Shown piece by piece: positions 37,398 through 41,578 of a stretch of 64,000 nucleotides of DNA. Numbering within the stretch: position 1 is the first letter of the stretch; each line of letters begins with the position of its first letter. A program made the translations under genes and the position numbers. The notes beneath the pieces were generated by a model. That model did no database searches. It was not told the origin of the DNA and saw nothing but the letters and a program-made list of their open reading frames with translations. The stretch is from the NCBI RefSeq assembly GCF_007993755.1, contig NZ_CP042467.1, forward strand, positions 3,372,001 through 3,436,000. Direction: 5' to 3'. The DNA is from Microvenator marinus (GTDB lineage: Bacteria; Myxococcota_A; Bradymonadia; Bradymonadales; Bradymonadaceae).

Positions 37398-38396
37398 ATG
37401 AACTACATACTTGCTGCCATCGCCGTCTTTCTCATCACCTCGTGCGAGAAATCCAAACCATCCGAGCCAGAACCGAAAGAAGCACGTCCGAAAACCTCAA
37501 ATCAGGTCAAACCCGAACCCGCCCCTGAATCAAAGCCAATCACGATGGCTTATATCACCGGAGAGGACGTGCAGCTGGCGACGGTGTCCAGAGAAGGCAT
37601 TGTTGCGGGGCAAAAGCTGGAACTAGACCACAAGCCCATTGCGCTTCACTGGATGCGAGAAAAACTCTTCATCCTCACCCACGACGACGAAGACCCACCA
37701 AAGTTCGAACTCATCGAATACACGAACCAGAAGAGGCGAAAACTCGATCTTCCGGAAGCTACGGCATGGGCCGTGCCACATGATGGCGATTTTTCAGCTC
37801 ACGAAGAAGGCGGCGCCTTGTTTGGCGACGACCGAGAACTCTGGATGCGACGCTGCGCCGGAGGGTACATGGGCGATATGAGCGGATGCACAACGTTTGG
37901 TTACGTGCGTTTACTACCCGAACTTCTCGAGAAACAAACCGAGGCCCCCAAGAAACCACGATTTGGTGTGAGATTTGTGGACGCACCTGCCGGCTACGAC
38001 GTGGACGTGGACTTCGATGACGAAACCGAAACGGGCAAACTCGTGTGCAAGGACAACGACGCAGCACCGGTAGTCTTGGACCCGCAACAACTCGGGATGG
38101 AGCCCGAAATGGTGCTCTGGCTCTCCCAAGACCCTCCGATCTTCGTCGTCAATCAATACGACCAGAGCGGCGAAGGACTTTTCGACTACTACATGATTTT
38201 CACGCCCTGTGAGTCCAAACCCCATGCTGAAGAAAGTGTGGCCGAATACGACTTCGTGTATGGGCCAAATGGCGCATGGGCGGCCGAGGGTGGCATCTAT
38301 CTGGACAACCAGCGCATCGGTCAAGTGGATTTCCAAGAGGCCGACATTCCCCGCTACAGCGGTCCGGGCCTCGCCTTTTCATTCGTCGAGGACTAG
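37398..38396 (+). CDS. Hypothetical lipoprotein
   Basis: About 332 aa. The signal peptide ends in LITSC (lipobox), followed by a Lys/Pro/Glu-rich linker (KSKPSEPEPKEARPK) and a beta-rich body with many Asp/Glu. The ATG at 37398 is chosen over the frame start at 37338 because it begins the signal peptide; the Shine-Dalgarno is weak (CAGG). It is divergent from nrfH. I recognise no family. Confidence 0.65.
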   Translation: MNYILAAIAVFLITSCEKSKPSEPEPKEARPKTSNQVKPEPAPESKPITMAYITGEDVQLATVSREGIVAGQKLELDHKPIALHWMREKLFILTHDDEDPPKFELIEYTNQKRRKLDLPEATAWAVPHDGDFSAHEEGGALFGDDRELWMRRCAGGYMGDMSGCTTFGYVRLLPELLEKQTEAPKKPRFGVRFVDAPAGYDVDVDFDDETETGKLVCKDNDAAPVVLDPQQLGMEPEMVLWLSQDPPIFVVNQYDQSGEGLFDYYMIFTPCESKPHAEESVAEYDFVYGPNGAWAAEGGIYLDNQRIGQVDFQEADIPRYSGPGLAFSFVED

Positions 38397-38473: not shown

Positions 38474-39739
38474 GTGCTAGCCAATATTCCGAATTTCCTT
38501 AGAACCATTATCCCTACATGCCTATTGCTGGTGCCGAGTCTAGGCCATGCGCAATTCAATGAGCCCGATTTCGGAAATCATCCTAATCCTGCTGAGGTCC
38601 GCAAAGTCGTCGAAGCCAGACGTGGCAAGATCCAAGGCTGTTTCAAAGAACATTCGCAAAGCATGCCGGAACGTCTCGATGTTCAGTTCACTATCTGGAA
38701 AGATGGCGGCGTGAATTGGGCATCTATCGATGATTCTGGCATCAAGGATCCGAGCGTCACCCGATGCGTACGGGATGTGATCCTCCTCACGAAATTTGCG
38801 CCACCCAATGTGGAAATCGCTAAGATTTCCTACCCCTTTTTCTTCGGTGATTCGAAACCTCCGGTTTCTCAGGGCGTTGTCTACAATGTGATTGCGGGAG
38901 GAACGAATGACGTGCAGAAGTGCTACGAAAATGCGTTGACGAGCAATCCTGGCTTGGCCGGAAAGGTGAGAGTTGAGTTCGTGATAGCCACCGACGGCAC
39001 CGTCCATTCGCAGAAGGTAGTCGACACGGCTCTCAATAATGCTCAGGCGGAAGATTGCATCCTTGGAGTTTTCTCCAAGCTGAAGTTTCCCAGGCCGAAA
39101 GGTGGCGAGGTGATTGTCACGTTTCCGTTCGTCTTTAGTGTGAGCGATCCTTCGGACGTCTTCAAGGTGATAGAGAAGAACTCAAGCGCCCTCGACCTTT
39201 GTTTCAAGACGGCTCAGGTGGATCCAGCAGCCTTTCCAGGCCTGCGAGTTCGATTCGAGATTTCCGAGGGCGGCAAGCCAGGACCCTTAAGCGTCTCTGG
39301 GCAGGAACCAAGTGACGCGAGACTCTCCCAATGCGTATTGGACGCCATCGCCCGCATGAAGTTTAAGTCAGCATCCCACAAAGTTACAATGAACTTTCCG
39401 GTCAACTTCGCAACGGTGATGAAGGCGCAGAAAGATAAGTCCCTGGACGACGGCGCATCGTTGAAACCCGACGTCACTCGCGAGGTGGTTCGGCAGAATA
39501 GAGAGGATATTCGAGGATGTCATCAGAAAGAACTCGCAAGAAATCCTGAGCTTGAGGAGCGAGTAGCGACAACATTTGTGGTTTGGCATGATGGGACCGT
39601 GGTCTTCGCAGCCGTTACAGGATCGACCCTCGACAACTCAACGGTTGAGCAATGCATCGTAGATGAACTCCTCACATGGACCTTTCCAAAACCTAAAGGA
39701 ATGGCCATCATCAACTACCCATTCGAGCTCTCCAAATGA
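38474..39739 (+). CDS. Secreted protein with four two-cysteine AgmX/PglI-like domains
   Basis: The protein is 421 aa. A signal peptide (cut near HAQ, about residue 26) is followed by four copies of one domain, each with a Cys pair: C56/C98, C150/C195, C243/C287 and C349/C394, 42-45 residues apart. Each has a V(R/Q)F.I..DG strand and ends near KFP-P...V...YPF/FPF. This resembles the AgmX/PglI C-terminal domain (a TonB-like fold) of myxobacterial secreted proteins, involved in gliding or cell-surface functions; the role here is not known. The start is GTG at 38474 with GGGAG upstream. The stop overlaps the next gene by 4 nt. Confidence 0.75.
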   Translation: MLANIPNFLRTIIPTCLLLVPSLGHAQFNEPDFGNHPNPAEVRKVVEARRGKIQGCFKEHSQSMPERLDVQFTIWKDGGVNWASIDDSGIKDPSVTRCVRDVILLTKFAPPNVEIAKISYPFFFGDSKPPVSQGVVYNVIAGGTNDVQKCYENALTSNPGLAGKVRVEFVIATDGTVHSQKVVDTALNNAQAEDCILGVFSKLKFPRPKGGEVIVTFPFVFSVSDPSDVFKVIEKNSSALDLCFKTAQVDPAAFPGLRVRFEISEGGKPGPLSVSGQEPSDARLSQCVLDAIARMKFKSASHKVTMNFPVNFATVMKAQKDKSLDDGASLKPDVTREVVRQNREDIRGCHQKELARNPELEERVATTFVVWHDGTVVFAAVTGSTLDNSTVEQCIVDELLTWTFPKPKGMAIINYPFELSK

Positions 39740-40413
39740 GGATAGTCTTCGTCCTGGCACTTTTAATCCCTAGTCTTGCAGGTGCTCAAACCGCAGAATC
39801 AGGCTCCCAGACTAGCCCTGCTGACAAGCCACGAGCACACCTAAGTATCATCAACCAGAAGAATGAGAGTATTGACGAATGTTTCGCCACGCTGACCAAG
39901 GAGCCTTCTCAACATCCAGGGGTGCGCGTCAAATTCGTGGTCTCAAAGGAGGGCACACCGACTCTCATGATTGCATCCGAGGCCGAGAATCCCGATCTTA
40001 CGAAGTGCGTGCTCGATGTGGTGGCCACCGTGAAGTTTCCGCCTGCGTCGAGGGAAGTTCTCATGAACTACAATTTCGCCTTCAAACAAGAATTTCCTCC
40101 CCATGATGGTAGTAGCTACAAGAAGAAGTTTATTCGTCAGGTCATAGGCGAGAATGAAGAGAACATTCAACGTTGTCACGACATTGGGCTCAAAGAGGAC
40201 CCTGAGCTTCACGGGAACATTCAGACCAAGTTCTACATTTGGTACGACGGCACTGTGCTCAAGTCGACCATTGAGAGTTCTACTCTGAACAATCCTGATG
40301 TGGAGCTATGCATCCAAGAGGCGATTCTTGGCATGCGTTTTCCTGAACCGCCCCTCATGGTTGTAGTTGCATACCCATTAGACTTTAAGACCAAGGAAAA
40401 GGGTGATGAATAG
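39736..40413 (+). CDS. Secreted protein with two two-cysteine AgmX/PglI-like domains
   Basis: The protein is 225 aa. A signal peptide (cut near AGAQ) is followed by two copies of the same domain as in the preceding gene: C49/C91 and C147/C192, spacing 42 and 45. The second copy (IQRCHDIGL...YIWYDGTV...NPDVELCIQEAILGMRFPEPP) is closest to copy 4 of the neighbour (RGCHQKEL...VVWHDGTV...STVEQCIVDELLTWTFPKP). It is translationally coupled to the gene upstream (4 nt overlap) and to the next gene (8 nt overlap), so all three are one transcription unit. Function inferred only by family. Confidence 0.75.
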   Translation: MRIVFVLALLIPSLAGAQTAESGSQTSPADKPRAHLSIINQKNESIDECFATLTKEPSQHPGVRVKFVVSKEGTPTLMIASEAENPDLTKCVLDVVATVKFPPASREVLMNYNFAFKQEFPPHDGSSYKKKFIRQVIGENEENIQRCHDIGLKEDPELHGNIQTKFYIWYDGTVLKSTIESSTLNNPDVELCIQEAILGMRFPEPPLMVVVAYPLDFKTKEKGDE

Positions 40414-41578
40414 ACGAGTATTGACGCTAATCTTTGGACTTGTATGCGCCGCGTGCGGCGACGACGGAGCGGACTTGCCAGCAAACTGTCAATCTGGCGA
40501 CATCACCGGAACCATCGAGGTCCTGGCACCACGAGATGTGACAGCCTGCGGCGAAGTCGCGCTTAAGAGCATTGCTCAGGGCACGACCCTCAGGCTGCGA
40601 CCTGGCACAGTTGTGGACATGTTCGAGGGCCAGAGTTTTGCTATCGATACGGTGTCGCGGCTTATCGCCGAGGGCACTGAGGAGCGACCGATCATTTTCC
40701 AAGCTGCCACCAAGCGTGGCTGGTCCACCCTCTCGTTCCCCACCAGCGTGAACGCCGAGCCGTCTATCCTGAAGCACGTGATTTTCCGGGGCGGTCGTGG
40801 CGATGACCCCATACTCGCCGTCCACGACGGAGTGCGTCTCAACCACGTTCAGATTGAGGATACGGATACGGGACTTTTGGTCTCTGGTTGGGATCCTCAA
40901 TCCTCAAATATCCAGATAACGACCCGCGAGACACCACTTATTCTACGCACCGAAGAAGCCCTCTACGACCTGCATAAGGTAGAAGGCCTGCGTGTCGATA
41001 GTGAGACGAAAATCCAAGTCGAAGGTGAAAGTTTCGGGGAGGTCGTTCTAAAAAGCGTTGGGGGCTACTACGAGTTTGAGCACGCGGAGTTCGACAGTCT
41101 TGATGTGGGTCCCCATTCCCTCGTCTTTGTGCGAAATGGTCTGCGGGCAACGAACGTGCGGGTCGAAGGCCCAGTAAGTTTCTATTCGGATCACGACCTC
41201 GCATTTCAAGGTGGTGTGATCGGCGACCTCAAGATTGATGGGGCAGGACGTGTTGAGTTTTCTGACGTCTCACTCAACAACGTGACTGTGCGTGATGCGG
41301 AGCATGTCCGCCTTGACGGGGAGATCTTGGCAAAAGGTCTCGAAGTCACGCGAACTATCGACTCTACCTCGAGTCTGGCCTCCTTTGCCCCTGGTGTTTC
41401 CGTAACCGATTCAGTCTTCGAGGACCTCAACATACCTGTGGTTCTGGAGTTCGATGGGGCGCTCAACTTCGTGGGCAATGTCGTCACCGGTTCAGACACA
41501 TGCATTCAAACCTCCACGGATGACACCACAGACTATAACGCCGTAAACACCCTGAATTGCCCAACTCCCGTGCGTTGA
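40406..41578 (+). CDS. Lipoprotein with a right-handed beta-helix-like body
   Basis: About 390 aa. The signal peptide ends in VCAAC (lipobox). The body is a series of short hydrophobic strands with regular V/I/L and D/G (RLRPGTVVDMFEGQSFAID, NHVQIEDTDTGLLVSG, ATNVRVEGPVSFYSDHDLAFQGGVIGDL), consistent with a parallel beta-helix. The ATG 40406 is preferred over GTG 40403 (frame start). It overlaps the previous stop by 8 nt. It may be the surface partner of the two-cysteine proteins encoded before it. The stop is 6 nt from the convergent htpG stop. Confidence 0.65.
   Translation: MNRRVLTLIFGLVCAACGDDGADLPANCQSGDITGTIEVLAPRDVTACGEVALKSIAQGTTLRLRPGTVVDMFEGQSFAIDTVSRLIAEGTEERPIIFQAATKRGWSTLSFPTSVNAEPSILKHVIFRGGRGDDPILAVHDGVRLNHVQIEDTDTGLLVSGWDPQSSNIQITTRETPLILRTEEALYDLHKVEGLRVDSETKIQVEGESFGEVVLKSVGGYYEFEHAEFDSLDVGPHSLVFVRNGLRATNVRVEGPVSFYSDHDLAFQGGVIGDLKIDGAGRVEFSDVSLNNVTVRDAEHVRLDGEILAKGLEVTRTIDSTSSLASFAPGVSVTDSVFEDLNIPVVLEFDGALNFVGNVVTGSDTCIQTSTDDTTDYNAVNTLNCPTPVR

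Follow-up and report, generated by a model that had tools for sequence, protein, structure and literature searches.

Two adjacent genes of Microvenator marinus, here called A and B, encode exported proteins which are built almost only from tandem TonB_C domains, and it is this packaging which is unusual about them. The units of both proteins are AgmX/PglI C-terminal domains (NF033768), a type within the TonB_C family which is common in myxobacteria, and A and B are thus an uncommon but modest rearrangement of a known domain. The two genes, together with the lipoprotein genes D and C which flank them, are contained in a window of 64,000 nucleotides, the whole stretch of DNA that was analysed (Table 1).

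Table 1. Genes, predicted signal peptides, and domain units of the locus, with positions counted in the window. The profile behind the bit scores comprised 58 domains taken from other genes, all units of the window being left out.
Feature	Position	Strand	Description
Gene D	37401..38396	+	lipoprotein upstream of A, same strand, 77 nt gap
Gene A	38474..39739	+	421 aa, GTG start, exported; four AgmX/PglI-type (TonB_C) domains
Signal peptide of A	38474..38551	+	predicted by sequence reading, type I; MLANIPNFLRTIIPTCLLLVPSLGHA before QFNE
Unit A1	38591..38845	+	aa 40-124, divergent, 47.7 bits
Unit A2	38873..39139	+	aa 134-222, canonical, 91.6 bits; predicted TonB-CTD fold, Z 9.5
Unit A3	39146..39412	+	aa 225-313, divergent, 32.0 bits; sister of B1
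Unit A4	39461..39733	+	aa 330-420, canonical, 81.0 bits; within the locus closest to B2
Gene B	39736..40413	+	225 aa, exported; two AgmX/PglI-type domains
Signal peptide of B	N-terminus of gene B	+	predicted; MRIVFVLALLIPSLAGA
Unit B1	39844..40089	+	aa 37-118, divergent, 34.4 bits
Unit B2	40117..40392	+	aa 128-219, canonical, 69.2 bits
Gene C	40406..41578	+	390-aa lipoprotein, lipobox VCAAC, predicted right-handed beta-helix

Six two-cysteine units of the AgmX/PglI type

The NCBIfam model NF033768 (AgmX/PglI C-terminal), which has a curated cut-off of 40 bits, matched protein A in four stretches (E 1.9e-81, 268.3 bits for the whole protein) and protein B in two stretches (E 5.5e-31, 106.5 bits for the whole protein). 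Taken singly, units A1 to A4 and B2 exceeded this cut-off and B1 fell slightly short of it with 36.7 bits. With the TonB_C profile of Pfam, protein A scored above and protein B slightly below the cut-off, and the likeness of the profile of the A/B domain to TonB was weak but significant. All six units were also recovered, with 32–92 bits, by the profile from the 58 domains found outside the window, and along both proteins the scores alternate between a divergent and a canonical unit. Each unit is about 90 residues long and contains two cysteines, which are 42, 45, 44, and 45 residues apart in A1 to A4 and 42 and 45 residues apart in B1 and B2. In all 15 pairwise alignments the units beat shuffled sequences with Z from 6.3 to 41, a likeness going well beyond the cysteine spacing; their mutual identity is about 19–40%, with intact cysteines and with core positions and reading frames kept. 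An earlier note on this DNA, which had proposed six copies (4 + 2) of an AgmX/PglI-type domain with cysteine pairs 42–45 residues apart, was therefore right in count, spacing, and family.

Both cysteines are invariant across 67 collected domains, a set which favours cysteine-bearing members as it was gathered by a profile seeded with the units of the window, so that the pair is a hallmark of the family and nothing specific to this locus. Another finding was that the FPxP loop preceding the last strand is wholly or partly lost in the alignment of A1, A3, and B1, and TonB-like binding by these units may therefore fail. Protein A had also been considered as a GltG or GltJ protein. It remained below the cut-offs of the equivalogs NF033760 and NF033761 (GltG or GltJ) with 227.3 versus 650 and 81.3 versus 450 bits, these partial scores coming solely through the repeated tail. 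As a profile search gave no FHA or GYF match in A and no membrane helix is present, this assignment was ruled out.

Predicted fold, export, and kinship of the units

An AlphaFold2 model of A calculated from 22 aligned sequences (mean pLDDT 79) yielded four separate domains, the mutual arrangement of which is not fixed by the model because of its low pTM of 0.44. The order of elements in each domain is helix, helix, strand, strand, helix, and strand, with the first two helices fused in A2. In all four units one cysteine is located in the helix preceding the first strand (helix 1) and the other one in the helix that joins strand 2 to strand 3 (helix 2), and each unit probably contains a disulfide linking helix 1 to helix 2. 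The closest solved structures to the model were TonB C-terminal domains, with a Foldseek E of 1.3e-3 and a VIA Z of 9.5 over 86 residues at 2.2 Å, the VIA matches spanning mainly units A1 and A2 and the fold match being best tested on A2. Nearly all of the top 25 matches were C-terminal domains of TonB, TolA, HasB, or FusB, several of them from complexes with outer membrane receptors. A TonB/TolA-type C-terminal fold is accordingly the predicted one for the four domains of A.

Cleavage of the signal peptides is predicted after SLGHA in A and after SLAGA in B, in both cases in front of a glutamine. Neither of the sites has a lipobox, and cysteine 16 of A likewise lies outside any lipobox. After the signal peptide no stretch resembling a membrane helix was found in A or B, the profile matches of neighbouring units are spaced by about 2–16 residues, and proline amounts to 7–8% in A and B. 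Both proteins are probably located in the periplasm. A role as energy transducer of the TonB type was considered and rejected, since proteins with a signal peptide only, which have neither an inner membrane anchor or other transmembrane helix nor a linker spanning the periplasm, are unable to transmit motor force themselves.

With regard to the origin of the units, A3 and B1 were sisters in two trees with support values of 100/94 and 100/98. A4 and B2 are the top-scoring pair with 36 of 92 positions identical, and were sisters with a support of 97/91 in one tree and not rejected as such in the other one (p 0.27). In the simplest reading of these sequence relations B is probably a duplicate of the two-domain block A3-A4. 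A strict two-domain module, with one clade of A1, A3, and B1 and another one of A2, A4, and B2, was tried as well and not adopted. In the trees used for this purpose, which have long branches, the former clade was compatible (p 0.18) and not required, and the latter was borderline (p 0.07). The claim is therefore limited to the duplication linking the A3-A4 block to B1-B2.

The locus and tandem arrays in other genomes

The order of genes is nrfA/nrfH-like genes on the opposite strand, then D, A, B, and C on the plus strand, followed by htpG on the minus strand, where the names nrfA, nrfH, and htpG were given by reading the sequences. A and B overlap by 4 nt with the bases ATGA, and the overlap of B and C is 8 nt due to the position of the start ATG of C; on re-reading, the coordinates and the two overlaps described earlier were correct. 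Gene D and gene A are possibly contained in one transcript. An operon scan for promoters and terminators gave no informative site.

The AlphaFold2 model of C (mean pLDDT 55) is confident in the first third only, with values mostly of 74–95 for residues from about 21 to 150, and its PDB matches among those listed were beta-helix proteins, the best with a Z of 13.9. In 57 genomes of the class the relatives of C were weak, generic beta-helix lipoproteins in other contexts, and no open reading frame with a TonB_C domain was found in flanks of about 1.5 kb around them. The set of A, B, and C side by side was absent from these 57 genomes, as was any full-length relative of A. The sole other match of D in the class was found in genome G008 with 43% identity, on a contig which stops short of the position where A would follow. 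The earlier note had inferred a dedicated system and had suggested looking for a conserved pairing with the beta-helix gene. Such a pairing was not found in the loci of the relatives, so that the pairing with C is, as far as these loci show, a local one and a conserved dedicated system is unsupported.

The genome of M. marinus contains 25 matches to the NF033768-type domain, six of them in A and B. Tandem copies were searched with a two-unit profile. In the 57 genomes of the class this search detected tandem copies only in M. marinus, in G006 with three copies, and in G007 and G004 with two each, and in 377 genomes of the phylum it added G226, G230, and G129 with two copies each. This run had a strict E-value and eight candidates scored per genome, settings with which divergent pairs will have escaped. 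The tandem proteins of M. marinus are A, B, and a third one at 1572652-1573251. The four copies of A are the largest array seen in one protein in these genomes, and the copy number is rare in the class and phylum samples. A scan of GTDB contigs, a set which may leave out the genome itself or near-identical ones, gave no ortholog of A, and a contig scan for which the three-copy G006 protein was the query gave mostly single-copy relatives. The papers found in searches of open-access text gave no pointer to such TonB-C array proteins.

Some further proteins with this domain were observed on the way. A two-unit exported protein (L084:7652-8323 and L210:927-1613) is common to the genome of M. marinus and G004, and, with orthology judged by eye, it looks like the sole tandem TonB_C protein common to two genera. 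In G129 (L209:5642-7989, contig C117) two exported proteins are encoded close together in the same orientation, of which one has two AgmX/PglI units and the other has one unit and a very weak second match. In G003 (L076:7004-11242, contig C9) a gltG-like gene is followed by four lipoprotein-like genes in series with one divergent AgmX/PglI domain each. M. marinus itself encodes a 969-aa protein (L079:6732-9641, genome positions 5826732-5829641) with a Ser/Thr protein kinase domain at its N-terminus and an AgmX/PglI (TonB_C) domain at its C-terminus; such a protein, with the kinase in the cytoplasm and the TonB-type tail in the periplasm, would be a possible envelope sensor.

Possible roles and relation to known systems

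GltC-, GltE-, and GltG-like genes are clustered at 5119001-5139000 of the M. marinus genome, a GltJ-like protein with a zinc ribbon and a GYF domain is encoded at about 2.04 Mb, and eight MotA/TolQ/ExbB matches were found, so that membrane transducers able to share partners exist in this organism. As the scores of these genes are below the equivalog cut-offs, Glt-like is the proper term for them. In the published model, outer membrane TonB-box proteins are contacted by GltG and GltJ through their TonB-C domains (PMC5349195; PMC3169522). The explanation favoured here, which is a tentative one, is that A and B may act as multivalent periplasmic adaptors or competitors for TonB-box-like segments. 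Their domains would pair with such segments in proteins of the outer membrane or envelope, segments like those thought to be touched by the membrane-anchored GltG/GltJ/TonB-like transducers, and would thereby cluster partners or tune the access of the transducers to them, with the beta-helix lipoprotein C as a putative local co-expressed partner. Against this stands that no TonB-box partner was identified, that A and B are located outside the Glt-like cluster, and that no ortholog shows a conserved function; also, no motor or outer membrane receptor gene is found beside A and B. Of the envelope assembly or binding role which the earlier note had suggested, binding is plausible by analogy to the family and assembly is unsupported.

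The relation to the Glt-like genes may be a closer one, with A and B as accessory subunits of the organism's own Agl/Glt-like machine, which moved from or replace the slot behind gltG and extend or bridge the outer membrane contacts of GltG and GltJ. Directly after the gltG-like gene, G006 encodes an exported TonB_C protein with three copies and G007 one with two, accompanied by a one-copy lipoprotein; a single-copy protein occupies this place in G009 as well as in G010, a series of four one-copy genes does so in G003, and G012 has a remnant. In M. marinus the slot is empty, the gltG-like gene being directly followed by a TPR lipoprotein gene (L073), which makes a functional link of A and B to Glt imaginable. 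Bradymonadales strains have also been described as gliding (PMC7188933). This reading is nevertheless unlikely, as most genomes of the same family have an empty slot, too, yet no A/B-like locus, the trees do not place the units of A and B with the glt-linked exported units, and a distance of about 1.7 Mb separates A and B from the cluster. A local envelope complex, in which A and B are tethered to the outer membrane by C and form a coat with a binding or structural role independent of a motor, would be in line with the overlaps of starts and stops, which suggest translational coupling, and with the lipobox and beta-helix prediction of C. The absence of the pairing from the 57 genomes of the class and the generic nature and other contexts of the relatives of C make it rather improbable. 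Expansion of a promiscuous domain in this lineage, with hardly any function under selection or none at all, could account for the number of domain matches in the genome, for arrays which arose separately by lineage (the units of G006 cluster together in the tree), and for the lack of an ortholog of A, but it has quite a low probability, since six open units with intact cysteines and such low mutual identity point to an old array and not to a recent and drifting one.

A wider proposal, ventured here as a long shot, would be a class of soluble, motor-free, multivalent TonB-C arrays which receive, cluster, or block TonB-box-type partners and have several origins in Myxococcota, with A and B as the largest example, a divergent-canonical module occurring three times over two genes. 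If such free arrays exist, they would offer outer membrane partners a natural multivalent ligand or decoy, and would be a ready tool to find the binding targets of the AgmX/PglI domains of gliding machines.

The TonB-type C-terminal domain is understood as the single working end of a membrane-anchored force transmitter. TonB, TolA, HasB, and FusB share the predicted fold of the A/B units with Z up to 9.5, but carry it only once, at the end of an energy transducer in the inner membrane, whereas A and B have several copies and neither anchor nor spanning linker. GltJ/AgmX and GltG/PglI of Myxococcus xanthus have the same domain, over the curated cut-off, with the same two-cysteine pattern; there it is a single C-terminal copy in a protein that is anchored in the membrane and has FHA or zinc-ribbon/GYF domains, in contrast to the four and two copies of the exported proteins A and B, which have no membrane helix. 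The exported proteins beside the gltG-like genes of G006, G007, G009, G003, and G010 resemble A and B in the domain and in having a signal peptide or lipobox, and differ in that they are part of a Glt-like cluster, not orthologous, limited to at most three copies, and with no beta-helix neighbour seen. Similar in build are the two-copy exported proteins elsewhere (L084/L210, L208, L209; G226), which contain a tandem pair, with a more divergent first unit in L084, L210, L209, and L208 like the pattern of A and B, although they consist of one gene with two units in neighbourhoods other than that of A and B.
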